This document shows, piece by piece, positions 9,847 to 32,621 of a stretch of 64,000 bases of DNA. The notes under the pieces are model-generated. The model was not told the origin of the DNA, did no database searches, and worked only from the letters and a program-made list of their open reading frames with translations. The stretch's first letter is position 1; each line of letters starts with the position of its first letter. Source of the DNA: an uncultured Clostridia bacterium (GTDB lineage: Bacteria; Bacillota; Clostridia; Oscillospirales; Ruminococcaceae); the NCBI GenBank assembly GCA_947629905.1, contig CANRFM010000011.1:1-64000 (forward strand), in the 5' to 3' direction. Made by a program: the position numbers and the translations under genes.

Positions 9847-12800
9847 TTATTGTGCAGCAATCGGGAAATCAGCCTGTGTGAGGATCTCGATAACCAGCTG
9901 CAGAATGTTCAGTGCATCGTAAGGAGCAACTGCACCATCCTGATCAACGTCAGCATTGGTAATACCCTGATCAGTCAGTGTAGCACCGTCAACGTTCATC
10001 AGCATCTGGTTTACAGCGATAACATCAGACAAATTTACAGTACCATTGCAGTCAGCATCGCCCCAGATGATATCGCCTGTTACAGACGGCTTGGTATCAC
10101 TCTCACCCTCTGTCGGAGTGGTGGGCTTGGTCGGCTTCGTTGTAGTGCCGCTGCCATCAGCTTCAGCAGCTTCATCCTGCATGAAGGATGCGATCCATGC
10201 GAGCGGTGCGTTCCAGTTGATGGTAACCTCGTTGGTAGACCATGCTTCGATGGAGTCTACATAGCATCTCTGAGACGGGTTGCTGTCATCGCCCGGAACA
10301 AAGCCCAGTGCACGTACATACGGGTCTTGCAGACCTGCGTTAGGACCACCGGACAGAACGCCGTCAGGAGCCAGAGGCAGAGTCTTGTCAAGTTCGTAAG
10401 ACCAGTATCTGTGGTGCGGGTTCGTCAGCTTGTAAGAACCGTAACCAGAAACGAAGGAGAAGGACAGCGGGTTGCAGCCGAGCAGGTAGTCCAGTGCGGA
10501 AACAACGCCGTTCATGTAGGTCACATCGCCAGTCAGGTCATAAGCATAAGCCATAACGATCGTGTTGTTGATGACCATGGAGTTGGAACCCCACTCATAG
10601 CCTTGGATCATAACACTCTCAGGCAGGTTGTTCGGGTCGTTGTAAGGATCACCGTCATACTTGTAGGGGATACCATAACCCTGTACAGCCTCTTCATCTA
10701 CATAAGCCTGTGCAGCTTCTACGATGGAATCTTCCACAGTCTTCTTCTGCGTATCATCCAGCAGATCTTCATGCAGTGCCAGTGTCAGAGAACCAGCAGA
10801 TGCTGTGTTGCCCCAGTTGAAGGAGGTGAAAGAACCCTTGTTCTCACCGCCGGTGCATCTTGTCGTTACCTTGAAAGCATCCTTGTATTCGGAGAGTTTG
10901 TCAAAATACGTAGAGGCATCCGCATCGCCCATTTCGCTTGCGGAAACGAAGATCTCGCAAGCTGCCCAGTAAGCATCATCCTTGACCTCGGTATCACCGT
11001 AAGGACCACCGCCCTTTGCCTGATACATCGGTGCATAGAGAGAAGTCTCATTCTCCTCTTCCTTGGTAAAGTGAGAGCCCTGTGTCAGGTCAGCCGGATA
11101 ATAGTGTGCCTCATAAGCTGCATATGCCTTCTTTGCTTCATCCAGATAGAATGCAGCCTTTTCAGCATCATAATCCTTCCAAAGTCTTGCTGCCTGTGCT
11201 GCGCAAGCTGCGTAGTTCAGGGTAGCTGCGAACGTCGGCGGCTTTACGATACGAACAGTCTCCCATTCCTTTTCATAGTCCCACGGTCTTGTAGCCAGAC
11301 CAGTCCACTTGTGGTCGTGCAGCTTGTGGTATACCATACCTGCATACTTGCCCCATGTCGGATCATCCGGCTGAACGACCATCTTGGTCATCCAGTCAAG
11401 CTCGTAAGCACACTCATCGAGGATATCCGGGATCTTGTTGCCGTTCTCCGGGATAATGATCGTACCAGAATCATCAGCGAACTTTTCGTTACCTGCATCC
11501 GGATCAACGGTGATCGCTCTCTCGTACATATTCTGGAGCGTCCATACAGAGATACCGCCGTTTACAACGTACTTACCATGGTCACCGGCATCGTACCAGC
11601 CGCCGGATGCAGTCATAGTTCCGGAAGCATAAGTCCCGGTAGCCTCTTCCTTGCTTGCGTACTCATTCTTCCAGATCTTCTGGATAGAAGCCGTATCTGT
11701 CTTGTGACCGCCTTCGTGACCCATGCCTGTGCCCTTGCCGTCAGAGCCGCCGGATGTACAATATTTATCTTCAATATCGATACCGGAACGGTTCTGATAG
11801 AAGTAGTTGACCGCATTGGTCAGCAGGTCATGCGAATCATCGGAATAGATGTTGTCGCCGATGTTGAAATCGAACGATCTCCAATCCTTGCCCTTGATGC
11901 GCAGGAAGTATCTGCCGGGCGTGGTGTAATCGGAGAAGTCGAGCTTGCAGACAGTATCTGCGGAATCCGGATCCTTGAATGCCTTGCCGGACGTTCCCTC
12001 ATAAACGACCTTGTTAGATTTAGAATCCACCAGCTCAAAGTCGTAAGTATCGCCTACGCCGATAGAGATCTTGGTAGCGCCATATACGATGTCGCCTTGG
12101 TTGTCGCCCAGTGTAGCGATCTTAGCCAGATTGGAGTAGTAACCGATCTGGTTTACGGAGATAAAGTTGACAGGCTCACCGTCTACCTGCAATTCCGGAT
12201 GTCCTACTACGCTGTAGTTACGGTCTGTTGCACCGTAGGACTTGCCCGGGTCAGCATCGCAGTCGTCGCAGGTCAGGCACTCGATGGACATATCATCGAA
12301 CCAAAGCTCGTCGCCCTCCTGTGCATTGCCCTCAAACTCGTGACCCATTGCATAGTGGAATGCCCACTCAATGCCTTCCAGATCTTGGGTCGGCTTGAAT
12401 ATGCCCTCATAGGTCTGCCAGTCCGTGGAAAGGATAGCAGCACTGCCGTACTGACCGCCCATGTGCGGACCCATGTGCATATTGCCCTGATTGCCGTCCA
12501 GCTCGAAGTACTCCTCATCGCCCTTGATATTACCGATCTTGGAGCAGAGCTGCATACCGGCTCTCTTTGCCTTTACCTTAAAGCTTACCTTGTACTCATG
12601 ATTTGCCTTGAAATTGAGGTTCCTGCATCTGAACTGCAGATCCCACTTCTCACCGTCGCCGCCCTCCGGCACGAGGACTGTCAGGTGAACTACACCGTTG
12701 TCACCTTCCTTGGTCAGCTCAAACTCCTGCTTTGCAGGACTTGTCTCACAGGTGTGCCACGGAAGCGCCTTGTAATCGAAGGACGTTTCACCAAGCACCT

Positions 12801-12903
12801 GACCTGCTGAAACATCGATCGGCGCAAATTCTGCAGCCATCGGTGCGAGCATTGCCACAGCCATGATCCCGGCTATGACAGCTCTGGAAAATTTCTTATG
12901 CAT
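9847..12903 (-). CDS. secreted cellulosomal GH9 glucanase: CBM4-like + Ig + GH9 + dockerin
   Basis: The 1018-residue protein has a signal peptide (residues 1-33, MAVAMLAPMAAEFA). A CBM4-type jelly roll follows at about 35-210 (DLQFRCRNLNFKANHEYKVSF...ELWFDDM). Next is a CelD_N Ig domain at about 245-350 (FISVNQIGYYSNLAKIATL). The GH9 catalytic domain spans about 355-915, with catalytic-Asp motif GGWYDAGDHGKYV, the His motif NPHHRYW and the general-acid Glu motif NEVTINWNAPLAW. A Thr/Pro linker leads to a type-I dockerin at about 948-1010 with two calcium loops (DADCNGTVNLSDV, DVDQDGAVAPYDA). Family members cut beta-1,4-glucans. GGGAGG precedes the ATG. Confidence 0.96.
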   Translation of the reverse strand: MHKKFSRAVIAGIMAVAMLAPMAAEFAPIDVSAGQVLGETSFDYKALPWHTCETSPAKQEFELTKEGDNGVVHLTVLVPEGGDGEKWDLQFRCRNLNFKANHEYKVSFKVKAKRAGMQLCSKIGNIKGDEEYFELDGNQGNMHMGPHMGGQYGSAAILSTDWQTYEGIFKPTQDLEGIEWAFHYAMGHEFEGNAQEGDELWFDDMSIECLTCDDCDADPGKSYGATDRNYSVVGHPELQVDGEPVNFISVNQIGYYSNLAKIATLGDNQGDIVYGATKISIGVGDTYDFELVDSKSNKVVYEGTSGKAFKDPDSADTVCKLDFSDYTTPGRYFLRIKGKDWRSFDFNIGDNIYSDDSHDLLTNAVNYFYQNRSGIDIEDKYCTSGGSDGKGTGMGHEGGHKTDTASIQKIWKNEYASKEEATGTYASGTMTASGGWYDAGDHGKYVVNGGISVWTLQNMYERAITVDPDAGNEKFADDSGTIIIPENGNKIPDILDECAYELDWMTKMVVQPDDPTWGKYAGMVYHKLHDHKWTGLATRPWDYEKEWETVRIVKPPTFAATLNYAACAAQAARLWKDYDAEKAAFYLDEAKKAYAAYEAHYYPADLTQGSHFTKEEENETSLYAPMYQAKGGGPYGDTEVKDDAYWAACEIFVSASEMGDADASTYFDKLSEYKDAFKVTTRCTGGENKGSFTSFNWGNTASAGSLTLALHEDLLDDTQKKTVEDSIVEAAQAYVDEEAVQGYGIPYKYDGDPYNDPNNLPESVMIQGYEWGSNSMVINNTIVMAYAYDLTGDVTYMNGVVSALDYLLGCNPLSFSFVSGYGSYKLTNPHHRYWSYELDKTLPLAPDGVLSGGPNAGLQDPYVRALGFVPGDDSNPSQRCYVDSIEAWSTNEVTINWNAPLAWIASFMQDEAAEADGSGTTTKPTKPTTPTEGESDTKPSVTGDIIWGDADCNGTVNLSDVIAVNQMLMNVDGATLTDQGITNADVDQDGAVAPYDALNILQLVIEILTQADFPIAAQ

Positions 12904-13031
12904 TTCAGCACCCTCCCTTTAGAAAAATAGGTTTCAGACATACTGTATGCCAGTGCAATACACACAGCATCTCCACGTTCATTGACGAGCAGATATACGT
13001 GGACTGCTGAACAGCCCAACTCATCATATTT

Positions 13032-13060
13032 ATTATATACTATATGCACAAAAAAGTAAA
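13032..13060 (-). promoter_or_regulatory. promoter of the first GH9 gene
   Basis: On the minus strand TTTACT and TATAAT are 17 bases apart. They lie about 130 bases before the start codon, which leaves a long 5' leader with short inverted repeats (CTGTTCAGCAG). Confidence 0.7.
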
Positions 13061-13120
13061 GTGTTTTTTTGAACTTTGGTAAAATTTCCAATACACGGGC
13101 ACAATTTTTGTGCATTATTT

Positions 13121-13158
13121 ACAAACAGCCTCTCCTAAAAGGAAAGGCTGCTTGTTTC
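13121..13158 (-). terminator. terminator of the GH9-CBM3c gene
   Basis: On the minus strand AAACAAGCAGCCT-loop-AGGCTGTTTGT forms a stem with a T-rich end just after the stop codon. Confidence 0.75.
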
Positions 13159-13166
13159 GGAACGCC

Positions 13167-15554
13167 TTACACCGGCAATTCCGGGATAATTTCAATCACA
13201 TAGCACAGGATATTGAGCGCATCCGCAGGAGCAAGCAAGCCATCCCTATCCACATCGCCGTTGTGCTGCTGCTGTTCATCCAGTGTGGTGAGGTTCAGCA
13301 GAAAACGGTTCAGCTCAATGACATCCGCAAGATTGACCTTGCCGTCCACCTCTACGTCGCCATAAACCACATCGCCCGGTACAGGTTCAGTAGCCTCGCC
13401 GCCGGAAGTCGTGTCCTCCGGTTCAACCGGTGCAGGGCGGGTCGGTGTCTCCACGTCCGGCGTTGTGCCGTCCGGCTCGATGCCCCATACCAGCTCATCA
13501 TTCACGTACATGGTAATATGTTCGTTGAGTGAATCGCTGCTCTTGAGGTCGGTAGCTGTTTCGATACCGCCCAGATAGGAGTAGTCATTCGTGGGATCCC
13601 ATGCGCCCGTTGTCGGCTGTCCGTCCACAGCATCCGGAATGGAGACACGGAACTGCACCTCGTCACGGTGTTCACTCTGTCCGGTCGGCTGGATCGCACG
13701 TCCGTCCGGGAACTGGATCAGCGCATAGTAGGTATTGCCTGTCGGGTCGCCGTCATACTTGAAAGGACCGGAAACTTCGGCAAAGCCCTGCTCTCCCTCC
13801 TGATACTGCTGAGAACCGCAGATAATGGAAATATCATCCACGGAAAGCCCAGCCGCCAGCACTTCTGAAACATCGAAATAGTAGCGGTAGGAAACATTCT
13901 TCTCCACTCTTGCCGGCCAAGCCGTATGGTTCATCGCCCAAGCCTTGATCTCCGTGTAGCTGTCGCCGGAACCATTCAGGACGGCTGCGACTTCCCATTC
14001 TGCCCACTTCGGCGTTTCTGTCGGCGGGAAATCTGCCAGCGGTGTTCCGCCGTGGTCGTCGATCATAGCGCAGAGGCAAGCCGTATAGCCCGCATTGTAG
14101 TCGATAGCGACCTCTGTATACTGGTAGTCCGAAACTTTATAGCTGCCGTAACTGCCCGTGTTGTCCGGACCGCCGATCAGTGCGCCGTAAAGGGTATGTG
14201 CATATTCGGTCTGCCAGCCCTCTTCGCCGCCTGTTTCCTGACCGAGTTCGTTCCAGTGGTCGTCATGGATGCCGGAAGCAGTTCTGTGGTGGATGGCAGT
14301 AGGCTGCTTATCGCCCATACCGAGCACATAGCTCATATTTTCCTCATTATCACCGAAGCAGTAGTCCATCTGACTGTCTGCCCATTCGTCAAACTTCTGC
14401 ACCTTTGCAGCATCGTCCTTGAAGATCGTATCGCTGGCAAGCTTTGCCAAGAATGCCGTATTGGTAGCATGGCGCAGGCAGCCCCAGTTGGTGAGGTGAG
14501 AAAGCCCGCCGGGGGTCACTTTTCCCTCAAAGGGTTTCAGCCCGGCAGCTTCGCCCTCATTCATCCAGTAGCGGAGGTGCTTTTCAATATGGTTGATCCA
14601 TTCTTCTTTCCCGGTGATCTGCGCATAGAGGAGTGCCGCAGCCTGTGTCGTATCATCCCATGCAAGCCCCCACGTATATTTCCAGTCGGTAGACTGATTT
14701 TCTTGTGGGAAATTTGGGATATAGTCGCTCTCGATCTTGTCCAGATACGCCTGATCGCCGGTCGCTTTATAGAGCCAGCAAGCAGCATACATACAGTCAT
14801 CGACCCATGTAGAAGTATTGTACATCCCCGACATACCGCCGACATCTTTCGTATCACGGATCGCATCTGCGCCCTCGAAAAGATCTTTTGCGTGCTCAAG
14901 GTATTCCGCTGCCTTGTCAGGGTCGCTGTCTTTGAAGATCATGTACCCCTGTGCAAGCGCCGCTGCGGAAAGGGCAGCAACGGTGGAGTTTTCGATGATG
15001 TCATAGGGACGTTCCCAGTCGTCGTTGTTCAGGTGATGCTTTCTCAGGTAAACTTCGGCGCTGCACCAGATATTATGATCCGTCGAACCCCCCGTAAAGT
15101 CGCCGATCGTGCCGACCATTTTTCCGCCGCCACGGTCTGCGCCAAGGACATAATCCATGCCCCACTGGATGTTGTTCCGGTAAAGCTCACCAAGCCCTGC
15201 GCCGTCTACAGCATCCTGATACTCCATATAGCCCCATGCTAAAATGGACGCACTATAGGCATTTGTCAGGGTGAATTTGAAGTGGTCGCCCGCATCGAAC
15301 CAGCCGCCGGGAACGACATCTGTTTCCTTGCCGTCCTCGTCCACCATAGAATTGGAACGCCATGAGACCTCGTTCCATTCCGGCAGAACGCCCGACTGCT
15401 GCACCTCATAGAAGAACATGGACTTCTGAAGCGCTTCCGCATAGTTGTAGTCTCCCTCTGCCCTGACGGTCAGCGGGACAGCTGCCTGCATGGGTGCGCT
15501 CAGTGCAGCAGCACACACAGCAAGCCCGGCAAGGAATGCCGTCAATTTTTTCAT
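13167..15554 (-). CDS. secreted cellulosomal endoglucanase: GH9 + CBM3c + dockerin
   Basis: The real start is ATG 15554 (MKKLTAFLAG) with GAGGGGAAG upstream; the ORF-track start is 51 codons too early. Residues 1-32 are a signal peptide. GH9 spans about 35-460: GGWFDAGDHFKF near the N-terminus, YVLGMGDKQPTAIHHRTA, and the catalytic-Glu segment TEVAIDYNAGYTACL. A CBM3c-like module follows at about 475-640 (VSYRYYFDVSEVLAAG). GH9-CBM3c pairs are typically processive endoglucanases. A Pro/Thr linker and dockerin (DVEVDGKVNLADV, DVDRDGLLAPADA) end the protein. It lies in tandem with the other GH9 gene but has its own promoter and terminator. Confidence 0.96.
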   Translation of the reverse strand: MKKLTAFLAGLAVCAAALSAPMQAAVPLTVRAEGDYNYAEALQKSMFFYEVQQSGVLPEWNEVSWRSNSMVDEDGKETDVVPGGWFDAGDHFKFTLTNAYSASILAWGYMEYQDAVDGAGLGELYRNNIQWGMDYVLGADRGGGKMVGTIGDFTGGSTDHNIWCSAEVYLRKHHLNNDDWERPYDIIENSTVAALSAAALAQGYMIFKDSDPDKAAEYLEHAKDLFEGADAIRDTKDVGGMSGMYNTSTWVDDCMYAACWLYKATGDQAYLDKIESDYIPNFPQENQSTDWKYTWGLAWDDTTQAAALLYAQITGKEEWINHIEKHLRYWMNEGEAAGLKPFEGKVTPGGLSHLTNWGCLRHATNTAFLAKLASDTIFKDDAAKVQKFDEWADSQMDYCFGDNEENMSYVLGMGDKQPTAIHHRTASGIHDDHWNELGQETGGEEGWQTEYAHTLYGALIGGPDNTGSYGSYKVSDYQYTEVAIDYNAGYTACLCAMIDDHGGTPLADFPPTETPKWAEWEVAAVLNGSGDSYTEIKAWAMNHTAWPARVEKNVSYRYYFDVSEVLAAGLSVDDISIICGSQQYQEGEQGFAEVSGPFKYDGDPTGNTYYALIQFPDGRAIQPTGQSEHRDEVQFRVSIPDAVDGQPTTGAWDPTNDYSYLGGIETATDLKSSDSLNEHITMYVNDELVWGIEPDGTTPDVETPTRPAPVEPEDTTSGGEATEPVPGDVVYGDVEVDGKVNLADVIELNRFLLNLTTLDEQQQHNGDVDRDGLLAPADALNILCYVIEIIPELPV

Positions 15555-15620
15555 AGTATCTTCCCCTCTCTGAAAAGAACAGCTTCGTCCGCCCCCGAAA
15601 GGGCGCATATGTATACTTTT

Positions 15621-15649
15621 ATTGTACACGAAACGGCGTGGTTTGTCAA
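15621..15649 (-). promoter_or_regulatory. promoter of the GH9-CBM3c gene
   Basis: Minus-strand TTGACA and TACAAT with 17-base spacing, about 70 bases before the start. Confidence 0.85.
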
Positions 15650-15727
15650 GTGTTTTAACAAAAATAAACCAGAATGCCCGACAAGATGCAGGATTTTCCA
15701 CGCACACTGTTATTCAGCGCTTACATA

Positions 15728-17110
15728 TCAGGTGTATTCCTCACTGTTTTCGTTGTATGCTTTCCGTGCATTGACAAATGCCACAAGACCTACGATCAGA
15801 AAGAGCAGTACAGCTCCCTCTATGATGAGCGTCATAGCGTGTATCGAAAAGGAGGATTCACCGCATTCTGCGCATTGCTCTTTGACAAGACCGGGAATGA
15901 TGAAGAAATTGAATACCCCGAACATCTTGACCGGCTGCAAGTTGTGTTCCTTGACAGCAAGCGTGACAGTATCATACAGTTCACCGCAGCGTACACAGTA
16001 ACGCTCCGCAGTACCCGTTTCCGTGCAGGTCGGCTCTTTGGTCGTCACCGTTTCACCAGCAACGTGAAACACAAAGGAACCCTGATCACTGACACAGGAG
16101 ATCTCCCACTCACAGATAAAGCCGTAATTCACATAGTAGTCGGATTCCCGGTATTCTGCTCCGATATTGGATTCTGCGACCCACTTTCCGGGTGAAAAGC
16201 TGCCTGAAGCAATGTTCATGGCAGCATGGACAGATTCACCGTCCGGATTATCCGGCTCACCCGGCGACCAATTGCTGTATGTGATGTCTGCTGTGTAACC
16301 GCCGCTGTCCCAGTTCCATTGTTCGCCGGATTCTTTTGCACCGATCCAGTACATATTCTTCTTTTCTTCCATCTGCAAAATGGACTGCGTCAGGAAATCC
16401 TGCTCCTCAGCCGATTCGATAAAGACCAGATGCCCGCCCATTTCCTTACAGAAACTATCCGCTTCTTCCGCTGTCAGGGAGACATGAAAGACCTTGTACA
16501 TATCGTTTCCGAATGTCAGCGTATTATCCGGGAGCGCATGGTCGCCCTCCTCTGTATATTCAATTGTATCTTTCCAATACTCACCGCTGTCCCATTCACA
16601 CAGGTAAGCCGCATCCCCGGAGAAGGCACTGTCGTTCCACCCGCCGTCCGGATATGCCGACAGCAAAAATTGCCCGTACTTCTCATCCAAGCTGCTCGGT
16701 TCACTGTCTGCCCAGTCGGTGTATTCCACCGGCTCATCCGTGACCCATTTCCAGCCCTCTCCTTCCCGGACAAGCCCGAAAAAGATCTGATCATAGCCAG
16801 CGCCGGCATAATTCTGAAATACCGCTTTACTTTCCTCTGCACTTGTCAGCGTTGCCAGATGTCCTCCCCTTGCGGCACAGAGACGCTGTGCTGCTTCCCA
16901 CGAAATCTCCATGGAATTCAGATCCTGATAGAGCATATAATAATGCCCTTCATAGCAGAACGCCTCCTGCGTGATCAGCAATTCTTCCTGCGCACCTACC
17001 GGAACACTATACAGCCACGGCAGGATCCCCGCAGCAGCCAGCCCTGCACACAGGCAGGAAAACACCCGCCGTCCCCCGCAAGCAAGATCTCTGATAAGTC
17101 GATTTTTCAT
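15728..17110 (-). CDS. membrane protein with two C-type-lectin-like domains
   Basis: This 460-residue protein has an N-terminal export signal (FSCLCAGLAAAGILPWLYSV). Two C-type-lectin-like domains follow, at about residues 45-190 (WEAAQRLCAARGGHLATLTS...GGWNDSAFSGDAAYLCEW) and 200-345 (AEEADSFCKEMGGHLVFIES...YWIGAKE...FICEWE). After a Cys-rich stretch (CTETGTAERYCVRCGE) there is a C-terminal membrane span (LIIEGAVLLFLIVGLVAFV) and a short cytoplasmic tail. The start lies four bases after the stop of the preceding GAP1-like gene, so it is the last gene of the GTPase/Hsp70 operon. The second lectin domain keeps an EPDN-like motif (SPGEPDNPDG) compatible with calcium and sugar binding. A role as surface sensor is inferred. 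Confidence 0.82.
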   Translation of the reverse strand: MKNRLIRDLACGGRRVFSCLCAGLAAAGILPWLYSVPVGAQEELLITQEAFCYEGHYYMLYQDLNSMEISWEAAQRLCAARGGHLATLTSAEESKAVFQNYAGAGYDQIFFGLVREGEGWKWVTDEPVEYTDWADSEPSSLDEKYGQFLLSAYPDGGWNDSAFSGDAAYLCEWDSGEYWKDTIEYTEEGDHALPDNTLTFGNDMYKVFHVSLTAEEADSFCKEMGGHLVFIESAEEQDFLTQSILQMEEKKNMYWIGAKESGEQWNWDSGGYTADITYSNWSPGEPDNPDGESVHAAMNIASGSFSPGKWVAESNIGAEYRESDYYVNYGFICEWEISCVSDQGSFVFHVAGETVTTKEPTCTETGTAERYCVRCGELYDTVTLAVKEHNLQPVKMFGVFNFFIIPGLVKEQCAECGESSFSIHAMTLIIEGAVLLFLIVGLVAFVNARKAYNENSEEYT

Positions 17111-17113
17111 ACA

Positions 17114-19894
17114 TCATTCATCCTTTGCCTTTTTTTTGAAGGGAAATCTCGCTTTCATCTTTCCAAGGAATGTGTTGCTATTTTCCTCTTCATACCCCTT
17201 TTCCAGCTCTTTCCGGAGTGTACGGAGGTCGGCATCTGCATCCGACTCACCAAACACCTGTGTCAGCCTCTGCCCAAGTCCGGCATCGTTGAGCGTATCT
17301 TCCAGATCATGGAATTTCAGCCCTTTTTTCAGCAGAATCCTGACTGTTTCGTCGCAGCGCAGCATTCCGGTCAGATGTATCACAGCAAGCAGCTCCGCTG
17401 TCAGCTGTGCTTTTTGTTTTTTCGGTGCTTCCTCTAAGAGTTTTTGAAGCCACTTGGCGGTAATGATATTTTGCGGGCTGGAAAGCTGCTTGGGGTTGGT
17501 AAATGCCACAAGATTCTGATAGGGCAGCACGGCAGTCCCCTCCCGCAGACAGCACTGATACAGGTAGTTCACGATCCGGGAAATGAATACATCTTGTGTC
17601 CTGTTGTCGAGCAGTTCAAACAGAACCGGCTGCCTGTTGCGCATCAAAAATGTCACATCAGACTGTGCTGCATTGAGATGGTTCATCAGGGACAAATTCT
17701 GAATGTCTCCTGCGGCTTCGCTCCCGTTGATACGATCTCCGGCAGCCCGCATCAGCTCTTTCAGTTCCTCCATGCGCTTGGAATCGAGATCATACCAGTT
17801 TTCCATGGAAAAGACAGACTCTTTATAAGCGATCGCCAGATCACCGAGCAATTTCGGCTCTGTCAAACCGCAAACTTTTGCAAAATTGTATACACGATAG
17901 ATATTGGACACCTTTTCCGGCGGTACATCCGGCAGTATGGCATCGAGCAGACAATCAAGCATTTCCTTGTAGTAAGCATCGCAGCCCTGTATACCGGATT
18001 TCAGGATACGGTTGAAAATACCTGTAATGGCATCGAAATCATACGTGTAGTGATCCTGCCGGATCTCCCGGAACAAAAGCTGCATTGCCGGATCCCGCAG
18101 TACTGTCAGTGAGGTGAGAAATTCGCTGTCAGCACTCTGTCCGGAACCTGCTATCACCCCGAATGTGTAGCGGACGATCTCCTCTTTCAGCTCCGGTGCA
18201 GCATCGGAATACAGTGCCTCCAGCAATGCTGCCTGACAGGCGGACGAACCGAACAATTCCACAAAATAGCCGAGCAGATTGCTGCGGTTGCGTTCATCAC
18301 GCAGTATGCTATACAGCAGAGAGCGGAACAATGCTGCCATTCCCGTGTCCGCCCGCAGCCCGGAAGCAGGTAAGCGGCTGCTCCTGATCTGCATGGCAGC
18401 GATCTTTGCCAGCTCCACAATGGCCCACTTCTTCTTTAACATTTCCCGGAGTTTCCGGATCTCCTCTTCCGGCATAAGAGCGCAGATCCGCTCCTCGTAG
18501 GATATGCCCAGACCGGAGCAAAAATCCTTGATCTGCGTACGCAGCGCTACATAATCCGTCTTTTCTCCCGTACACAGCAAATGTTTCAGGCAGCGGAGAA
18601 ATCTGTCACAGACAGCAGTGCGCTCCTGTTCCGGGCTGTTACGATACAAGCGACCTGCCAGACGGAGCATTTCTTCGCTGCCCTCTCCCAGTACGCCCTT
18701 ATCCACCGTCTGCGACATCAGTTTATCCAGAATGGAGCGCATATCTTTTCCGCCGCCATAGCGCCCGGCAAATGCCTCTGCCTCTGCCAGATAGGCAAGA
18801 TTGCCGGGTTCCGGGTACAGGCTGAGCAAGTAGAAGCTATACCCCCGTAGATAGTCATTGTCCAGCTTGCGGTACGTGGTCTTTTCCATGAGGAATTTCT
18901 GATAGTCCCGCAGCTGCTGTAAATCATTGTCAAAGGATGCCTCGATCAGTGCCTGAAACTGGTCACTGCGCATCCCGTTGTCCGCAAAGCTCTCTTTCTC
19001 AAAATCAAACAGTGCCGCATCGCTGCGTGCTGCTTCTGTGGGATAATCATAATTTGTCGCCCGGTCATCTGCCTCATCACCATTGACACTGGGCGTATAC
19101 ACGCCGCAGAACATCACCGGTTCATAAACCGGAGAAACCTGATCGGGACGGGATGCAAGGAACGAATACGTCGTAAAGGAAAACTGCTTTGCCAGCTCCT
19201 CCGGTAACAGCAAAGAAAGCGCAGCGATCCAGTAGATCATGTTCTCTTTCCTGTCACACACCATCAGCTGTCTGGTTTCCTGTGCCTCATCCCCATGATC
19301 CAGTACATACTGGAACATGGAGCAGAGCAGATCCAGTCTGTCTCCCTCATTGATGAAACGAATGACATCCTCCGTAGTGAACGGCAGCGCCTTTGTCATT
19401 CGGGCAGGCTGCGGCAAGAGCGGTGCAATTTCTGCCTGTTTGCAGAAATAATTGGTATCATACGGAACGAACAGCTCCGGGCAGCCATAGTAGGAGAAAG
19501 GATACCCGCTGATCTCACTGCTGTCTGCGGCAAGCAGATTCACAAGGATATTGCCCGGACGGGATTTGCCAATGTCCCGTCCCAGATTTCTTCCGTAGGA
19601 AAATACAGCTTTTTCCGCTCCCCCGATCTGTACGGGCTGATAACTGAAAGTTTCCGGATGGTGCTGCCGGATAGCAGCCTCCTCTTCCGTGTCACGCACA
19701 CTTTCCTCATCGGCAGTACTCCACCACAGTTCCTGATTACGGGGCGGGGCATAGGTCACGGAAACACGCTTCACATCCTGAGAAGCCTGACTGAGTGCTT
19801 CAAATCCCTTGGTAAAGGAATAGTAGCCGAAACCCGTTGTCCCCGTATCACGCCTTGCACGGACACAAGTATAAATCGACTGTTCAATTGGCAT
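17114..19894 (-). CDS. large GAP1-like (GTPase-associated protein 1) protein
   Basis: ATG 19894 (MPIEQSIYTC) is the likely start, with GAGAGGTG in front; the GTG at 19903 lies in that ribosome site. The 926-residue protein has no signal peptide or membrane span. Its first 150 residues (EQSIYTCVRARR, TGFGYYSFTKGF, then VSVTYAPP) look like the N-terminal domain of GTPase-associated protein 1. That family is predicted from comparative genomics to partner dedicated GTPases in conflict systems. The middle and C-terminal parts are mostly helical and unrecognised. Two GTPase genes in the same operon support the reading. The assignment is by eye and needs a profile search. Confidence 0.6.
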   Translation of the reverse strand: MPIEQSIYTCVRARRDTGTTGFGYYSFTKGFEALSQASQDVKRVSVTYAPPRNQELWWSTADEESVRDTEEEAAIRQHHPETFSYQPVQIGGAEKAVFSYGRNLGRDIGKSRPGNILVNLLAADSSEISGYPFSYYGCPELFVPYDTNYFCKQAEIAPLLPQPARMTKALPFTTEDVIRFINEGDRLDLLCSMFQYVLDHGDEAQETRQLMVCDRKENMIYWIAALSLLLPEELAKQFSFTTYSFLASRPDQVSPVYEPVMFCGVYTPSVNGDEADDRATNYDYPTEAARSDAALFDFEKESFADNGMRSDQFQALIEASFDNDLQQLRDYQKFLMEKTTYRKLDNDYLRGYSFYLLSLYPEPGNLAYLAEAEAFAGRYGGGKDMRSILDKLMSQTVDKGVLGEGSEEMLRLAGRLYRNSPEQERTAVCDRFLRCLKHLLCTGEKTDYVALRTQIKDFCSGLGISYEERICALMPEEEIRKLREMLKKKWAIVELAKIAAMQIRSSRLPASGLRADTGMAALFRSLLYSILRDERNRSNLLGYFVELFGSSACQAALLEALYSDAAPELKEEIVRYTFGVIAGSGQSADSEFLTSLTVLRDPAMQLLFREIRQDHYTYDFDAITGIFNRILKSGIQGCDAYYKEMLDCLLDAILPDVPPEKVSNIYRVYNFAKVCGLTEPKLLGDLAIAYKESVFSMENWYDLDSKRMEELKELMRAAGDRINGSEAAGDIQNLSLMNHLNAAQSDVTFLMRNRQPVLFELLDNRTQDVFISRIVNYLYQCCLREGTAVLPYQNLVAFTNPKQLSSPQNIITAKWLQKLLEEAPKKQKAQLTAELLAVIHLTGMLRCDETVRILLKKGLKFHDLEDTLNDAGLGQRLTQVFGESDADADLRTLRKELEKGYEEENSNTFLGKMKARFPFKKKAKDE

Positions 19895-19909
19895 AATTCG
19901 CACCTCTCT

Positions 19910-20734
19910 TTATTCGTTCTTGATGTGGATGCAGTTCAGAAACAGCAGTCCGGCTGCTGCTGAACCTATCGCCAGCCCCGCAGCAGAAAGATAGTCTCCC
20001 ATCTCCGGCATTCTGCCGGTCAGATCACTTAACCGGGACAGTACCCAGAATTTCTCAAAGGGAAAGGAAATATGCTGCACCACCCGCAGATACGTGAATC
20101 CGGACGGCAATGCCAGCACAACGGAAACAGCTGTCAGCATGGCAGCCGTGGTTTGCCGCAGCAGGACGGAAAGCGTTGTACAAAACACTGAAAAACTGAA
20201 CAGCATAAATACTTGTGTCAGCAGCACCGCTGCCAGTTCTCCCGGTGCAATTTCTGTTGACGGGATGCCCGCTGCCGTTGCCGAGACAAGAAAACCAGCC
20301 AGATAGGTCACTGCCAGCAAAAAGGTGAACAGCAGCATGACAAGCAGATAAGACAGATACACAGAACTGCGCCGGCAGCCCTTTGCCACTGCTGCAAAAA
20401 AACCGCCCTGCCGGAATTCCGCTGTGACCGTCCGGGAAATATAGACCGAAAGCAGTACGGTCAGACTGCTGCTGTTCAGAATGCGTGTCAGCAGCTGATT
20501 TGTGTACAGATGTTCCAGCTCGTCACGGGAGCGCATCTGCACCACCAGAAAATTATAATACTGCCCCTGCCGGAACGTTTCCAGCATATCGTCCGACACG
20601 CCTGAAAGCGTTCCGCTGATGTTTTGCAGAAAGATCACCACCGCAGCCGACAGGAGCAGCGCAGACCCGAATATTGCCGCTGCCGCTGCATTGCAGAACG
20701 TTTTCCGGCATTGCAAGGCAAGAAGCTTTCTCAT
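19910..20734 (-). CDS. ABC-2-type transporter permease
   Basis: Starting at ATG 20734 (MRKLLALQCRK) after AAGGAG, the 274-residue product has about six membrane segments: one near residue 25, then a cluster from about 90 to 260. A large extracytoplasmic loop lies between segments 1 and 2, as in ABC-2 permeases. Its start overlaps the ATPase stop (ATGA), so the two are coupled and form one exporter. The GAP1-like gene follows after only 15 bases. The substrate cannot be deduced. Confidence 0.8.
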   Translation of the reverse strand: MRKLLALQCRKTFCNAAAAAIFGSALLLSAAVVIFLQNISGTLSGVSDDMLETFRQGQYYNFLVVQMRSRDELEHLYTNQLLTRILNSSSLTVLLSVYISRTVTAEFRQGGFFAAVAKGCRRSSVYLSYLLVMLLFTFLLAVTYLAGFLVSATAAGIPSTEIAPGELAAVLLTQVFMLFSFSVFCTTLSVLLRQTTAAMLTAVSVVLALPSGFTYLRVVQHISFPFEKFWVLSRLSDLTGRMPEMGDYLSAAGLAIGSAAAGLLFLNCIHIKNE

Positions 20735-21621
20735 GCCGTCTGCTCCTTTCCGCACATATAATACCGCAGGATCTCCTCCGTGTCTGCCTCTGCCTTTTCA
20801 CAAAAGCGAAAGCCCTCCGACAGAACAGGCTGCGACTGAGAGATCACAGCGATCGTGTCCTCATAATAGGGTATCGCACACAATGCCGGATGCTCCTGTT
20901 CCAGCCGGTGTATGCCATCTGACAGCGCATCCACGGCATAGATATACCGGAAAAAACCCCGTTCTTTCAGCGAGCGCATCGTTCCCTCACTGCTCATCCG
21001 ACCTTCACAGATCACGCCAAAATCTGTTGCCAGCCGCACCAGTTCCGGGAGAATGTGACTTGTTACCAGAATCGTTACACCGCCCTTGTGCAGCGTGTGC
21101 AGCAATATCCGCAGATGTTCCATTCCCTGCGGGTCGATCGCATTGAAAGGCTCATCCAGTATCAGAAGCGACGGCGCACCGACAAGCGCACCTGCGATCA
21201 GGATACGCTTGTACATTCCGTCCGAGCAATCCCGCAGCCGCTTGTGCAAATAACCTGTACATTCCGTCATAGCGGCGACTCTTGTGATCTCCGTGGCAGG
21301 ATCAGCGCCGCAAAGCAGACACATCTGCCGCAGATGTTCCTTTCCCCGCAGAGACATATTCCGGCACAGCATCTGCATCACCGCACCAATTCTACGCCGC
21401 TGCGCAAGGAGTTCCTGACTGCCGAACAACCGGATCTCCCCCTGATACTGCGTTTCCAGTCCCAGCAGTACCTTCAGCAATGTGGTCTTACCTGCGCCGT
21501 TATTTCCCACCAGTGCATAGACTGCCCCTTTGCGCACGGACAGACTGATCCCTTTCAGGATAGGTTTGCTGCCAATGCTAAAGTTCAGATCCCGCACTCC
21601 GATCACTTGTTCTTCACTCAT
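20731..21621 (-). CDS. ABC transporter ATP-binding protein
   Basis: A 296-residue ABC ATPase: Walker A GNNGAGKTT, Q-loop VMQMLC, Walker B LLILDEPF, D-loop NAIDPQG and switch His VTSHILPE. The signature is CSDGMYKR instead of LSGGQ-R, keeping only Ser and the second Gly. That is within the range of ABC-2 exporters but weakly conserved. The last ~80 residues resemble the accessory domain of such ATPases. ATG 21621 is preferred to the overlapping GTG at 21624; the ribosome site is weak, so coupling to the GTPase gene 30 bases upstream is likely. Confidence 0.88.
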   Translation of the reverse strand: MSEEQVIGVRDLNFSIGSKPILKGISLSVRKGAVYALVGNNGAGKTTLLKVLLGLETQYQGEIRLFGSQELLAQRRRIGAVMQMLCRNMSLRGKEHLRQMCLLCGADPATEITRVAAMTECTGYLHKRLRDCSDGMYKRILIAGALVGAPSLLILDEPFNAIDPQGMEHLRILLHTLHKGGVTILVTSHILPELVRLATDFGVICEGRMSSEGTMRSLKERGFFRYIYAVDALSDGIHRLEQEHPALCAIPYYEDTIAVISQSQPVLSEGFRFCEKAEADTEEILRYYMCGKEQTA

Positions 21622-21650
21622 CACTAACCACGCAGACTTTCTGGAATCGC

Positions 21651-22817
21651 TCAGACAATGATATGCCGCTGATCCAGCAGCCAGAGGAACGGGTCCTCTA
21701 CCCGCTTGGAAACGATGATCGGCACTTTGCCATTGGCTTCCGGTGCTGCACCAATGGCAGAGACACCAAAGAATTTATATTTCGAGAAATTCTGCTGCAC
21801 TGTCAGGAGGAAGTTTTCGCATCCCCAGTGTGCCAGCAGACCTTCTATCTCTGCGCTGACATTATCGCAGTTGGCAGCATCAAAGCCATTCTTGAAATGC
21901 GGGCTGTCTCCGGTGCTCACAGTGCTTCCCTGACACAGCTCCGGAGAATGTTCGATCAGATCCCACTTGGAAAAAGCAATTGCCAACGGAATGTCAATAA
22001 TGGTTTTCTTTGCCATACGCTTCTGACTGCGAATGACGGATATCAGATTGTTCAAAATATCATCATAGCTCAGGATCGTTTCACCCTCACGCACGTCCGC
22101 CTTGGCGTTTTCCGTTTTCAGGGTGTTGCGTACCGTTTCGATCTGAAGCGGGTCAAGCAGCAGCAAGATCGCAGTAGAGTGCTGGATATATTTTGCGACA
22201 GCATCCATGATCGCCACATCATCAAAATTCTCTCCTGCGGCATCAAAGAAAGTGAATGTGCGGTCTGCGCCGTTCTTGTCCCGGAGGTCGCAGAGCAAAG
22301 GCGTATTGGCGCTCAGGAAATTGTCTTCATCCGTTGGCTGCTGCGTTTTTTCGAGCTTCATGCCCTTGTCAAAATTGGCTTTGAACTTGGACATATACAG
22401 CTTTTCATCGTTCTTTGTCGTATACTTGAACGAACACCCGAATGTATGGATATGGGTGCGAAGCTGCCGCAGCAGTGTGCCGACATAATAGCTCTTCCCT
22501 GCCCCGGGCGCACCCACGATAGAGATGATGATGTTTTCCTTTGTATCCGGCAATGCACTGTGACATTCCGGGCAGATCCGGATGTTCGTCACCTCATTGC
22601 ACTTGTCGCACTGCGCAAAGCCGTTCTTGACCTTGATACGCCCGCCGAGGATGTGCGGCTGCTGCAGCTTGACGGACTGGTGATACTTGAAAAATGCAGG
22701 ATCATCCTCCAGTTTATCCTGTTGTTTGCAAAAATAGGAATTGCATCGCCACTGTACTTTTCCTGCCGGAAAGCGCTGAAAGCAATAGGGGCAGATGATG
22801 GATTTATCAAAAAGCAT
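21651..22817 (-). CDS. cytosolic Zn-ribbon GTPase (Double-GTPase-like)
   Basis: The 388-residue protein opens with a Zn-knuckle pair (CPYCFQ, later WRCNSYFC) and a second ribbon (CDKCNEVTNIRICPECH). The P-loop follows at about residue 102 (GAPGAGKS), then a switch-2/G3 block (FFDAAGENFDD) and a G4-like FSKWDL in place of NKxD. This arrangement matches the Double-GTPase/TRAFAC-clade proteins reported beside GAP1 genes. GAGGAGG precedes the ATG at ideal distance. It sits between the FN3 protein and the ABC genes. A second, membrane-anchored protein of the same general type begins the operon. Confidence 0.78.
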   Translation of the reverse strand: MLFDKSIICPYCFQRFPAGKVQWRCNSYFCKQQDKLEDDPAFFKYHQSVKLQQPHILGGRIKVKNGFAQCDKCNEVTNIRICPECHSALPDTKENIIISIVGAPGAGKSYYVGTLLRQLRTHIHTFGCSFKYTTKNDEKLYMSKFKANFDKGMKLEKTQQPTDEDNFLSANTPLLCDLRDKNGADRTFTFFDAAGENFDDVAIMDAVAKYIQHSTAILLLLDPLQIETVRNTLKTENAKADVREGETILSYDDILNNLISVIRSQKRMAKKTIIDIPLAIAFSKWDLIEHSPELCQGSTVSTGDSPHFKNGFDAANCDNVSAEIEGLLAHWGCENFLLTVQQNFSKYKFFGVSAIGAAPEANGKVPIIVSKRVEDPFLWLLDQRHIIV

Positions 22818-22830: not shown

Positions 22831-25800
22831 TCACAGTTCGGCAGTATGCCCCTCTGCGATCATCAGCTGATAGCATCCGCTCAGGCTCTTGTCTTTCAGG
22901 AACAGTTTCCCGAAGACCCGTTTTTTCTTTACCGTATTTGGCAGCGGGGGCAGTACAAATTCATATCGCTTGGCAGGGGCTGCTCCGGTAGGTTGGATCT
23001 CAAGCAGCTGCTGACCGTCTACCTCCGCTGCCGGTATAAAACCGTCCCGGTAGCAGAGTGTCATTTCCGGCAGTTCAGCCTTTTCCGTAAGTGTCAGGAT
23101 CAGTTTCTTTTTCGATAACAGTCCGCCCTTGGTAAAATAATAGCTGATACCGATCTGCTGTTCCGTTCCATACTTGGCACGGAACACCGTACTATAGCCA
23201 TTCCCGCCCCGCACAAATCCTGCGATCCAGCAAGCGCCGCTGCCTGACGGTACTACAATGCCACGGGAACGATAGTCACGCTCATTGACCGTGAACTTTG
23301 TACCGCCGGCATCACTGACCGTTGACGGGTATCTGTCATCCCGATAGGCGATCGTAAGGATATTGCATCCGGCAGGCCATTTTTCCAGCTCAAGGTGCAG
23401 ATTCATGCCGTCACTCTTGATGGCTTTTACCGCAAGCATTTCAAGATTTTCATAGTAGTCATCGTGTCCGATGACAGCCGTTTCACCACGCACAGAAACC
23501 ACGTAAATATAGCCCTTGCTGTTTTTCTCAGCCTTGAAGCGATACACCCGTGCGCTCTCTTTTGTGACCTTGATCGGCGTCAGTTTCAGTTCATCTGTCA
23601 GCTTCTGTACGGTCGTAATACCGTCATTCGGAATGATAATGCTGCGCTCACTCTGATAAAATGCGATCTCCTCATCCGCATCCGGCTCGGCTTTCAGCTC
23701 CATACGGCAGGTATCCTCGTCCTGTATCAGCGTGAAATCCATGGGCTTGCTGATCTTTATGGGTGATGCCGAAATCGAAAACGGCGGAGAAATACGCTTC
23801 TTTCCGCCTGTCTCCAGTGTCAGGAAGATCTGGTAGTAATACTTCACCCCGACCTGTAAACCCTCATCCGTAAAGCTGTTGGATGTTACATTTTGGACGG
23901 GCGTTCCCTTGCCATATTCTGTCATACCGGGTGTTTCCGAACGGAACACCTCTGCCTGCATTCCGTGAACATCCGTGTCCCATGTGACCCGGATGCTTTT
24001 TTCGTCCGGCAGCACATTGGCTGAACGGATCTCCGGAAAGAGCAGACACGGTTCCGGGGACGTACACAGGGCAGTCTTGCTGCTGCCACGAATTGCAAAC
24101 ACGGCATAGAAATAGGGCACACCAATGTCAGGAGAACGGTCGCAATAGGCTTTTTCACTGGTCTGTGCGAGCTTTCCGTCCTCTGTGCTGACCGGCTTGC
24201 TGTATGCCTTACGAAGGATAACATAGACAGCCGTTTCTTCGGGGTTGCTGCTCTTCCATTCAAGATTGACGCACCCGGCATTCTGCACGGCACTGCATAG
24301 CAGACTGCTGACAGGTTCCGGCTTGATCGAACCCAATTCCCGCACAGCATCCGCATGGTCGGCAACATATTCCGTGACCTTGATGAGCTTCTGGAGACGG
24401 GTGTTGGCATCCTTTGCCTGTGTGGCTTCCCGATACGTTTCATCCGCCTTTTTCAGTGCATCGCTGATCTCTGTCTGTAGCAGTTCATCCTGATAGCCGG
24501 GCGCTGTATTCCGGAGCTGCTGGTAGGTTTTCCGTGCTGCAAAATAGCGCTTCTCACGGATACTTGTCTCCAGCTCTGCCACGATCGTTCCGAATTTCTT
24601 TTTCTGGCTGTCCAGTTCCTGACGAATATCCTTGAGCAGCGGAAAGCCTGCCCAAGCCTTTTCGATTTCCTGTACCTGTGACTCGGCAAATCCGAATTGC
24701 AGACCGGCGATCAGCCGGGAAGCATCCTCACACTTCCGTGCAAGACGGGGGTACTGGTCAAAATTGAAGCCGCAGCAGCTGTTTTTCTCCGCAAAATTGA
24801 CAGGCTTATGACATTTCGGGCAAGTCAGCAGAAACGATCTCCGGCAGACAGGACAGGCATCCGGCACTTTTCCTTCCTTTTTTTCAAAGATGCTGTTACA
24901 GAACGGGCACATACTGTTGAGTGCCACCTTTTGCTGAATGGCGATCTTTTTTTCTTTACAGTAATTTTCCAGAATACTCTCCGCATCATCCCGGTTCTGC
25001 ACAAGCTCCACAATGCGGTTGATGTACACGCCTTTCTGCTCCAGATAGAGCATCTTAGTATCGCTGACATTGCCAATATCATTTTGCAGCTCATCCAAAA
25101 TGGACTTGATTTTTTTATAAAGAAGGTATTTATTATATTCCTGCTGATTCTGCTTGTCACCGGACACAGCAAAATGCACCCGGATGCAGGTGCAGACAGA
25201 CTGCACAGCAGATTTTTCAGCATTCTCTTTTCTGGCTTTCCATGCATCTTCAATAGCAGAGGCAGCAGCTACACAGGCGGCAGCTGCTGTGGTTTCAGAA
25301 AAAACAGTATGCGTATTCACCTGATACCGGTTGAGGAACTGGTAAAAATCTTCGCATCCAAGCTGTACTGCACTCTTGGACGGCGGATTGAAGCTTTTTT
25401 CCCCTTCCTCAGAACGATAGTCCTCCAGTTTCCGGTCAGAACGGGTACGCTTCTCCTCTGCATCCCGGACAGGGATACCCTTGCTCTGAATGATACTGCG
25501 GACAAGGCTTTCATCCACCTTGTATTTCTTGTTTACATCACCCACCCGGATCTTGACAGCATCCTTCATTTTGGCGATCTCATCATTTGTGAGATAGCCC
25601 TTTCCCCGGTTGGCATTGATCATGCTGGTAATTTTTTCTATGATCTTTGCCTTGGCATCCTGATACAGCTTTTCCCATTCTGCGGCATTAGAAATGGCTT
25701 CCCGCACGGGCTTTTCGTATTTTTCCTTCTTATTGCGTTCAGAGGTGCTGGCAGAGGCATTCCATTTTTTCAGTTTCTTTTCCAGCTCATCCATTGCCTC

Positions 25801-25860
25801 CTGACCGCTTACAAACCTGTCGATCGGCAATTCCAGTACAAGATAATAATTCTCGTTCAT
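22831..25860 (-). CDS. large Zn-ribbon / FN3-repeat protein
   Basis: A 1009-residue protein without signal peptide or membrane span. The first ~60 residues (YYLVLELPIDRF...LEKKLKKWNASAS) resemble the helical start of J-domain-like proteins, but no HPD is present. Residues about 325-375 hold Zn ribbons (CPFCNSIF, CPVCRRSF, CPKCHKP). Next comes a helical stretch. From about residue 510 on there are FN3-like beta-sandwich repeats (CVNLEWKSSN, GVPYFYAVFAI, IRVTWDTDVHG, GVKYYYQIFL). It lies between the Hsp70-vWA and GTPase genes, 32 and 13 bases away. An adaptor linking chaperones to a target is a guess. GGGAGAT precedes the ATG. Confidence 0.75.
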   Translation of the reverse strand: MNENYYLVLELPIDRFVSGQEAMDELEKKLKKWNASASTSERNKKEKYEKPVREAISNAAEWEKLYQDAKAKIIEKITSMINANRGKGYLTNDEIAKMKDAVKIRVGDVNKKYKVDESLVRSIIQSKGIPVRDAEEKRTRSDRKLEDYRSEEGEKSFNPPSKSAVQLGCEDFYQFLNRYQVNTHTVFSETTAAAACVAAASAIEDAWKARKENAEKSAVQSVCTCIRVHFAVSGDKQNQQEYNKYLLYKKIKSILDELQNDIGNVSDTKMLYLEQKGVYINRIVELVQNRDDAESILENYCKEKKIAIQQKVALNSMCPFCNSIFEKKEGKVPDACPVCRRSFLLTCPKCHKPVNFAEKNSCCGFNFDQYPRLARKCEDASRLIAGLQFGFAESQVQEIEKAWAGFPLLKDIRQELDSQKKKFGTIVAELETSIREKRYFAARKTYQQLRNTAPGYQDELLQTEISDALKKADETYREATQAKDANTRLQKLIKVTEYVADHADAVRELGSIKPEPVSSLLCSAVQNAGCVNLEWKSSNPEETAVYVILRKAYSKPVSTEDGKLAQTSEKAYCDRSPDIGVPYFYAVFAIRGSSKTALCTSPEPCLLFPEIRSANVLPDEKSIRVTWDTDVHGMQAEVFRSETPGMTEYGKGTPVQNVTSNSFTDEGLQVGVKYYYQIFLTLETGGKKRISPPFSISASPIKISKPMDFTLIQDEDTCRMELKAEPDADEEIAFYQSERSIIIPNDGITTVQKLTDELKLTPIKVTKESARVYRFKAEKNSKGYIYVVSVRGETAVIGHDDYYENLEMLAVKAIKSDGMNLHLELEKWPAGCNILTIAYRDDRYPSTVSDAGGTKFTVNERDYRSRGIVVPSGSGACWIAGFVRGGNGYSTVFRAKYGTEQQIGISYYFTKGGLLSKKKLILTLTEKAELPEMTLCYRDGFIPAAEVDGQQLLEIQPTGAAPAKRYEFVLPPLPNTVKKKRVFGKLFLKDKSLSGCYQLMIAEGHTAEL

Positions 25861-28162: not shown

Positions 28163-29782
28163 TTATGCCTGACCGACGGCATCATTTTCAATATCTGCCT
28201 CGATCTCGCAGTGATGTGTCAGATCCACACCACGCACATGGATCATACCATCCAGAGAAATGCTCAGTGTCACCTCGATCGGAGAACCCTTCGGCAGTTC
28301 CGTATGGATCTTCAGCATCGCTGTACCGATTTTCAGATCTTCGTCAATATCATAAAATTCTTCATAGTTGTTGACCTGATAAATATTCAGGTCGATCAGC
28401 TTTGCGCCGTCATCGGAAGTCGGGAATACCTCAGTATGTGTTACCGGAAGCTCTGTATCCTTCTTAATGAGGTTATAGACCTTCGGTTCCCCGTTGTACC
28501 GTACTTCCAGTCCAAGGCTCTTGGTGGCAACCGTCTTGATCGAAATACTGCCGAGTGTGATGCCGGCTTCTGTGTTCTGAAGTGTCTCATATCTTCCGAA
28601 CAGCTCCACCACTTGCTTCTTCTGTTCCGCAGCTTCTTCCGGCGGCAGATCAGCATAGTGATCGTCCGCACTGCCATCCGTATCCGAATTGCCGTCCGTC
28701 CCCGTAATATCAATTATTCTGCTATAGGCATACATAGTAGCGCCCTTGGAAACTGCACTGTTCGGCTCGTTAATGAACAGCTCCATGCCGGGGAAAGCTT
28801 TCTCCAGCGCTGCCTTGACCTGCGGCATATAAGTAGAACCGCCCACCAGCAGCATTTTGTCGATCTGGATGCCACGTTCTGACACACGGTCGAGGACTTT
28901 CTGTGTCAGACTGATCGCCTTATCCATTAAATTGGCTGTACATTGCTCAAATTCCGTCCGGGTGATCTCAATGGCAGCCCGGTGCTGTCTGTCAATGGAT
29001 ACCGGCACAGAAGCTTTCTCCGCACCCGTCAGCATGATTTTTGCCTTTTCAGCATTGATGACAAGTTCCTGCTCGATGTCCGAATCATACTCTTCGTCCC
29101 AGCCGGTCTCTTCCTCGAACTTCATCTTTACCAGATCGATGAGGGCAGCATCCCAGTTTTTACCGCCAAGATCGTGGTCGCCCTCTGTTGTGATGACCTT
29201 GAAGCTGGTACCCTTGCATTCCATTGCTGTAACATCAAATGTACCGCCGCCAAGGTCGAATACGATAATATTCTCCTCATCCTGTGACTTGTTCACACCA
29301 TAATACAGCGCAGCAGCAGTAGGTTCTTCTACAATGCCCAGAACATCCAGACCAGCCTCGATACCAGCAGCCTGCGTTGCTTTCTTCTCCGGGTCGCCAA
29401 AATATGCCGGTACTGTGATAACCACTCTCTTCACAGTGGAATTGGTGTAGTTACCGGCATCGTTTGCCAGTTTTTTCAGAATTTCAGCAGACACAGCGAT
29501 CGGCGTAGTCGTCAGGGACAGATCCGGACCGTAGTTAAACGAAGCATCCTTGCCGATACGTGCCTTGACGAACTGGATCGTTCTGTCTGCGTAGATCTCA
29601 GCTGTGTTTTTTGCGGCTTCACCGACAACAGCATCCCCGTTGTCCTCCAGACGTACTACAGAGGGAGTCGTTGTTCCGCCCTCAATACTCGGACATACGA
29701 CAACCTGTCCATTCTCATCCAGATAGCTGATACAGGAATAGGTCGTTCCCAAGTCAATGCCAAATACATATTTTTCTTCCAT
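28163..29782 (-). CDS. Hsp70 (DnaK-like) chaperone with a short C-terminus
   Basis: ATG 29782 (MEEKYVFGIDLGTTYSC) with AGGAGGT is the start; the ORF track adds 40 false codons. The 539-residue product has the full ATPase domain (VPAYFGDPEKKATQ, EEPTAAALYYG, VFDLGGGTFDVTAM, LLVGGSTYMPQV). The beta substrate-binding part is at about 400-530. It ends soon after HVRGVDLTHH, about 70 residues shorter than DnaK, so the helical lid is largely missing. It follows the GrpE-like gene by 13 bases. Two Hsp70 genes with a private GrpE suggest a dedicated chaperone cycle, not the housekeeping one. Confidence 0.93.
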   Translation of the reverse strand: MEEKYVFGIDLGTTYSCISYLDENGQVVVCPSIEGGTTTPSVVRLEDNGDAVVGEAAKNTAEIYADRTIQFVKARIGKDASFNYGPDLSLTTTPIAVSAEILKKLANDAGNYTNSTVKRVVITVPAYFGDPEKKATQAAGIEAGLDVLGIVEEPTAAALYYGVNKSQDEENIIVFDLGGGTFDVTAMECKGTSFKVITTEGDHDLGGKNWDAALIDLVKMKFEEETGWDEEYDSDIEQELVINAEKAKIMLTGAEKASVPVSIDRQHRAAIEITRTEFEQCTANLMDKAISLTQKVLDRVSERGIQIDKMLLVGGSTYMPQVKAALEKAFPGMELFINEPNSAVSKGATMYAYSRIIDITGTDGNSDTDGSADDHYADLPPEEAAEQKKQVVELFGRYETLQNTEAGITLGSISIKTVATKSLGLEVRYNGEPKVYNLIKKDTELPVTHTEVFPTSDDGAKLIDLNIYQVNNYEEFYDIDEDLKIGTAMLKIHTELPKGSPIEVTLSISLDGMIHVRGVDLTHHCEIEADIENDAVGQA

Positions 29783-29795
29783 TTTGGAATACCTC

Positions 29796-32555: not shown

Positions 32556-32621
32556 TCTTTTCCCCTCCAAAAATAGTAGACCGCAGTCAGCTCCATTATA
32601 ATCCAGCAGCTCTGCTGTTTT

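Follow-up and report, generated by a model that had tools for sequence, protein, structure and literature searches.

We have found that the last gene of a predicted GAP1-N2/HSP70 double-GTPase (DO-GTPase) operon from an uncultured Clostridia bacterium of the Ruminococcaceae, a relative of Ruminococcus of the gut type, encodes a membrane-anchored protein with two C-type-lectin-like domains (CTLDs). The stretch of DNA analyzed, 64,000 nucleotides long, is referred to here as the window. The operon is a known kind of predicted system, and its lectin-bearing form is a new, clade-specific variant. We think it fairly likely (a probability of about 0.6) that the lectin is the outward-facing ligand-binding component of this variant and that it feeds the GTPase/GAP1 switch. 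The gene's linkage to the operon across the clade carries most of the argument, and the evidence that it belongs there is good.

Results

The lectin gene (15728-17110, minus strand) encodes a protein of 460 aa that matches the Pfam family Lectin_C (1.4e-27 for the whole protein; 2.4e-14 and 1.4e-12 for the two matching stretches), with orthologues at loci L035, L036, L042, L043, L044 and L046 and a partial one at L110. From its N terminus the protein comprises a putative signal peptide region (residues 1-42, 16985-17110), which is a hydrophobic helix in the structural model and is present in all orthologues, CTLD1 (residues 50-174, 16589-16963), CTLD2 (residues 196-336, 16103-16525), a neck (residues 337-424, 15839-16102) and a C-terminal transmembrane helix (residues 425-450, 15761-15838) followed by a 10-aa tail, all on the minus strand. 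Both CTLDs are delimited by Lectin_C matches, the alignment and the model, and have invariant cysteines (C78/C171 in CTLD1 and C221/C333 in CTLD2). The neck, seen in the alignment, the model and a class-wide search, carries the conserved cysteines C339, C362, C372xxC375 and C413xxC416, and its repeat is of a type that the search found to be common in large clostridial surface proteins. An AlphaFold model built from the seven orthologues (mean pLDDT 69.9, pTM 0.62) predicts, at moderate confidence, two regions that resemble CTLDs, a neck rich in beta structure and a helix spanning residues 425-454, where all orthologues have a hydrophobic stretch. The two CTLDs, cysteine-containing neck and C-terminal membrane anchor described in a first-pass annotation of the sequence are thus borne out by two Lectin_C matches, six conserved neck cysteines and the model helix. 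Judging from hydrophobicity and the model, we infer that the protein is exported, with the CTLDs outside the cell and a single membrane helix leading to a short inner tail. A search of the whole of the window's own genome found no independent lectin elsewhere, these two CTLDs being its only Lectin_C matches.

The CTLD fold is supported by Lectin_C, the model and a Foldseek search, in which animal CTLDs rank first (TMt ~0.7-0.8 for single-CTLD structures), as they also do in a sequence-profile search. The best profile and fold matches are the animal tandem-CTLD receptors (Endo180/uPARAP, the mannose receptor, DEC-205 and PLA2R), which share with the window lectin CTLDs in a row and a C-terminal membrane helix. 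Unlike these receptors, however, the lectin has no CysR or FN2 domains; the receptors match it only locally (whole-chain TM ~0.25), the likeness is limited to the CTLD fold, and the profile and fold comparison gave no evidence of a common origin of the two architectures.

The operon runs on the minus strand from 32651 to 15728. Its first gene, at which there is a promoter-like site (32651-32622), encodes a membrane DO-GTPase with hydrophobic N-terminal segments (30693-32651; PF19993, 1.6e-9). There follow genes for a GrpE-like nucleotide exchange factor (29796-30635; PF01025, 1e-11), a DnaK-like HSP70 (28163-29902; PF00012, 7.9e-89), an HSP70 with a C-terminal vWA domain (25893-27992; PF00012, 1e-101, and PF00092, 1.6e-12), a large, variable, zinc-ribbon-like protein of 1009 aa (22831-25860), a zinc-ribbon DO-GTPase (21651-22817; PF19975, 2.3e-13, and PF19993, 1.5e-10, above cut-off), an optional ABC ATPase (20731-21624; PF00005, 3e-25), an optional ABC permease-like membrane protein (19910-20755), GAP1 (17114-19903, likely start ATG 19894) and, lastly, the lectin. 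The permease-like protein is hydrophobic, has no significant Pfam match and has orthologues only at L035, L042, L046 and L047. GAP1 has both a GAP1-N2 domain (PF20014, 8.1e-9, 36.1 bits) and a GAP1-M domain (PF20013, 5.4e-6, 26.9 bits), each above the curated cut-off of 24 bits.

With two DO-GTPases, GAP1-N2 and GAP1-M encoded downstream of a GTPase, and HSP70 and GrpE, the operon is of the GAP1-N2 DO-GTPase type, for which a role in conflict is predicted. In particular it resembles the HSP70/GrpE theme among the GAP1-N2 double-GTPase systems described by Kaur, Burroughs, Iyer and Aravind in 2020 (eLife e52696, PMC7159879), where, in the parts of the paper considered here, a zinc-ribbon DO-GTPase, a membrane DO-GTPase, GAP1-N2 and GAP1-M, HSP70 twice and GrpE likewise make up one operon. 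The window's operon differs in having an ABC pair and, downstream of GAP1, a lectin-like membrane protein, neither of which is named in those parts, and in carrying a vWA domain on its second HSP70. We note that the HSP70-vWA fusion, which the same parts do not name either, is also found at L036 and in many distant systems. The 1009-aa protein occupies the position of the FNIII-repeat component, which in the HSP70 theme as described there is fused to DnaJ or TPR; it is orthologous to the gene in the same slot of other systems and had no Pfam match to FN3 or DnaJ domains. PADLOC models did not match the lectin, GAP1 or the GTPases. Adjoining the operon are two dockerin-bearing GH9 cellulase genes (9847-15707, minus strand) with a promoter-like site at 15649-15621, as is usual for cellulose-degrading Ruminococcus.

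The GAP1 stop codon (TGA, 17116-17114) and the lectin start codon (ATG, from 17110) are separated by 3 nt and lie in the same reading frame, so the start lies four bases after the stop, as first annotated. Among the orthologous operons this gap is 1 nt at L035 and L042, 3 nt in the window, 10 nt at L046, 45 nt at L036, 426 nt at L044 and 1005 nt at L043. The idea that the lectin is translationally tied to GAP1 is therefore in keeping with the five short gaps but not with the two long ones; co-transcription is likely in the five operons with gaps of 45 nt or less, whereas at L043 and L044 the lectin may be transcribed separately. A simple promoter scan of the 3' part of GAP1 (17114-18200), where an independent promoter would have spoken against the coupling, found nothing promoter-like on the minus strand; this is weak evidence. 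The 1005-nt stretch at L043 (7967-8971) contains no clear gene.

The ABC pair, an exporter that the first-pass annotation had paired with the lectin, does not follow it. The pair is present in the window and at L035, L042, L046 and L047 and absent from L036, L043 and L044; lectin without ABC genes occurs at the last three loci and ABC genes without lectin at L047. The two thus vary independently, and we reject the transporter as an obligatory partner of the lectin.

Across genomes, the lectin keeps close company with one branch of these systems. A survey of 249 family genomes found Lectin_C in 21, a close GAP1 in three and a distant GAP1 in a fourth, and in 3 of the 3 with a close GAP1 a double-CTLD gene lies directly after it. 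A GTPase-alignment scan of genome contigs yielded 48 loci, which were annotated with profiles from the window and three relatives; we defined the clade, which is one of Ruminococcus, as those operons whose GTPase is ~48% or more identical to that of the window, and eight of these (among them the window, L036 and L035, which is the same as L045) have a resolved slot after GAP1. The lectin lies directly after GAP1 in seven of the eight, versus none of ~31 more distant systems (Fisher p ~6e-7, computed with 30 distant systems and ignoring relatedness). Homologous operons consistently lacking the gene would have argued against its membership; this is true of the ~31 distant systems but not within the clade, and the lectin is thus a clade-specific addition rather than a core part. 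Since six related clusters have the same gene in this position, it is probably the outward-facing part of the cluster.

The only resolved clade operon without the lectin is L047, which lies inside the clade in the GTPase tree (with rough supports), pointing to loss or replacement. The contig of L048 ends before the slot, and in the same genome an orthologous lectin is found at the end of a contig (L110, where the contig stops inside the gene); among the loci searched, L110 is also the only CTLD locus outside the lectin-bearing operons matched by a profile of the neck and membrane region. In the GAP1 tree a single branch separates the lectin-bearing operons from the others (rough support 69/87), requiring one change, and GAP1 and lectin diverge together: their pairwise identities are correlated across the seven operons (r=0.91, label-permutation p=0.0002), as would be expected for co-inheritance; simple vertical co-inheritance would also give such a correlation. 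Order-wide GAP1 and class-wide lectin searches found no further orthologues among the genomes drawn, the class-wide lectin search having matched stretches of CTLD or the neck repeat found in large surface proteins. Two candidates were set aside: L038 (G055), a double-CTLD protein of similar size with a C-terminal hydrophobic helix, is not an orthologue, since it lacks a neck and the 293 bases available upstream contain no reading frame for GAP1, and L065, a protein with Ig repeats and a single CTLD that is encoded upstream of a distant system, has no neck and was excluded from the counts. At L049 (7851-11682; Ruminococcus sp. Phil11) the large protein, GTPase and GAP1 of a clade system are in pieces, suggesting recent loss.

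The lectin-bearing operons, of which our sample is small (seven, partly from metagenome-assembled genomes), lie at five or more chromosomal sites, flanked by GH9 genes, guaB, uvrB, an MGT-type glycosyltransferase gene or, at L036, unrelated genes; L035 shares its site with L042, and L043 with L044. Three sampled genus-mates of the window have no GAP1, so the unit, lectin included, is patchy and probably mobile or often lost. These data bear on whether the lectin is a passenger, that is, an ordinary surface lectin caught by chance at the end of the operon and co-inherited ever since. Although it stands last in the operon, does not occur in the distant systems and lies 426-1005 nt from GAP1 in two operons, it has been kept in 7/8 operons across GAP1 identities down to ~30% and across those several sites, and in the genomes sampled no copy with a resolved location lies outside the operon. 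We already disfavour the passenger explanation and consider it very improbable.

A canonical C-type lectin calcium site (site 2) combines EPN or QPD with a WND-type motif, with some exceptions (PMC12842671). CTLD2 of the window lectin has EPDN, which had been annotated as a sugar/calcium motif, but carries WVAE (in the context KWVAE) at the WND position. Among the orthologues, W-x-A-[E/Q] stands in place of WND in CTLD2 in 8/8 (seven full, including the window, and the partial L110), such that W.D is found in 0/8, while EP.N is present in 4/7 full orthologues and missing in 4/8 when L110 is included; W.D is retained by most other CTLDs of related genomes. Canonical calcium-dependent sugar binding by CTLD2 is therefore doubtful. 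The EPDN itself is there, but with WND gone from CTLD2 of every orthologue we reject sugar binding as a general feature read from it. CTLD1 of the window lectin has EPS and WND, a pair that is not conserved: among the seven full orthologues, both motifs are complete only at L046, and at L035 and L042 CTLD1 is degenerate and lacks the loop. The alignment indicates that the canonical site of CTLD2 has probably given way to a different but conserved sequence, and the ligand may be something other than a sugar.

The long loop of CTLD1 is the least conserved folded part of the protein (its mean identity is 25%, as against 40% in the core of CTLD1). Such variability would suit a decoy or adhesin, an effector that binds phage, competitor or host molecules at the surface and blocks or tethers them, sending no signal inward, while the GTPase/HSP70 module merely controls its export, assembly or amount. 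There is a precedent in the parts of PMC7159879 considered here, where CTLD-fold (FGS) proteins of related systems are called effectors and decoy binding is proposed for them, and chaperones together with an optional ABC transporter would fit a role in assembly. However, three operons have the lectin without the transporter, many HSP70 systems have no surface lectin at all, and HSP70 and GrpE, being cytosolic, are not likely to work on a protein once it is outside the cell. On these grounds we regard a decoy or adhesin as unlikely.

At L047 (15640-17968) the lectin slot holds, 21 nt after GAP1, the gene for a protein that is anchored in the membrane and combines three SLH domains with an NADase-translocation F5/8C-type domain, followed by a gene for a Peptidase_M15 (D-Ala-D-Ala dipeptidase) lipoprotein; it is possible that this represents exchange of a surface module. 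In the distant system at L083 the gene for an SLH protein starts 14 nt beyond GAP1, and in 13 distant loci the gene after GAP1 encodes a membrane GTPase, with other genes there in some distant loci. This pattern, drawn from few cases, suggests that the position tends to hold a membrane or surface part. A different arrangement is seen in distant HSP70-type systems at L085 (14493-17993) and, similarly, at L060, L067, L081, L082 and L086, where GAP1 is followed by a protein of ~1150 aa, the L085 copy of which matches HerA/FtsK-like ATPases (DUF87), and then by smaller genes of ~140-200 aa; this protein is possibly another module of those systems.

The SLH proteins at L047 and L083 and the neighbouring peptidase also raise the possibility that the CTLDs recognize the wall of the cell itself or a structural partner, and that the system senses the status of the envelope and answers envelope stress, not invaders. 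DO-GTPases have been associated with membrane-related stress (PMC11237479), and the NCBIfam model nearest to the window's ABC ATPase is of the lantibiotic-protection type, though its score is far below the cut-off. Yet the very patchy distribution of the system (4/249 family genomes) is more like that of a conflict system than of a housekeeping stress response, and we find an envelope sensor improbable.

Discussion

The reading we prefer, an outward-facing ligand-binding component, would work as follows. The lectin would be expressed from a single operon together with GAP1, two GTPases (of which one is membrane-bound) and the HSP70/GrpE chaperones, and exported, with its two CTLDs displayed outside on the cysteine-containing neck and held by the single C-terminal membrane helix. 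The CTLDs would bind a surface or incoming ligand, which could be a cell-wall glycan, a phage or competitor surface, or a host or feed glycan; binding would be passed inward through the membrane, by a putative contact, to the membrane GTPase/GAP1 switch, which would in turn engage the chaperone module. Counting against such a role are the absence of the lectin from most GAP1-N2/HSP70 systems, the poor conservation of its sugar/calcium motifs and the degenerate CTLD1 of two orthologues.

Membrane segments and extracellular ligand-binding domains are a theme of GAP1-N2 systems in the parts of PMC7159879 considered here, which name, for example, SH3, PEGA and cadherin domains, and FGS domains too. 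The word "lectin" occurs three times in that paper, and these parts name no Lectin_C protein in GAP1-N2 systems; nor did a search of open-licence papers find any on a lectin in GAP1-N2/HSP70 systems or any experimental test of such a system. The closest parallels described there are the FGS effectors of VMAP-ternary and planctomycete GAP1-N2 systems, which are C-type-lectin-fold proteins of the same general class of systems. FGS is, however, another branch of the fold, whereas the window lectin belongs to Pfam Lectin_C, has its domains in tandem and is predicted to be exported and membrane-anchored. It is conceivable, though we hold it doubtful, that a bacterial tandem C-type-lectin-like receptor signalling across the membrane to a GTPase/GAP1/HSP70 switch amounts to a lectin-receptor surveillance pathway in a gut bacterium. 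Such a pathway would resemble in its working, without any shared descent, the animal lectin receptors that act on immune switches inside the cell.

For GAP1-N2/HSP70 double-GTPase systems, whose predicted role is immune-like and which have no known trigger, the lectin is a concrete candidate for the input. That a lectin and an SLH and F5/8C-type protein are found in the same slot suggests that the input module is exchanged at this position. Given a dedicated outward-facing protein tied to one clade, and a slot in which it is swapped for another, what these systems sense becomes testable.
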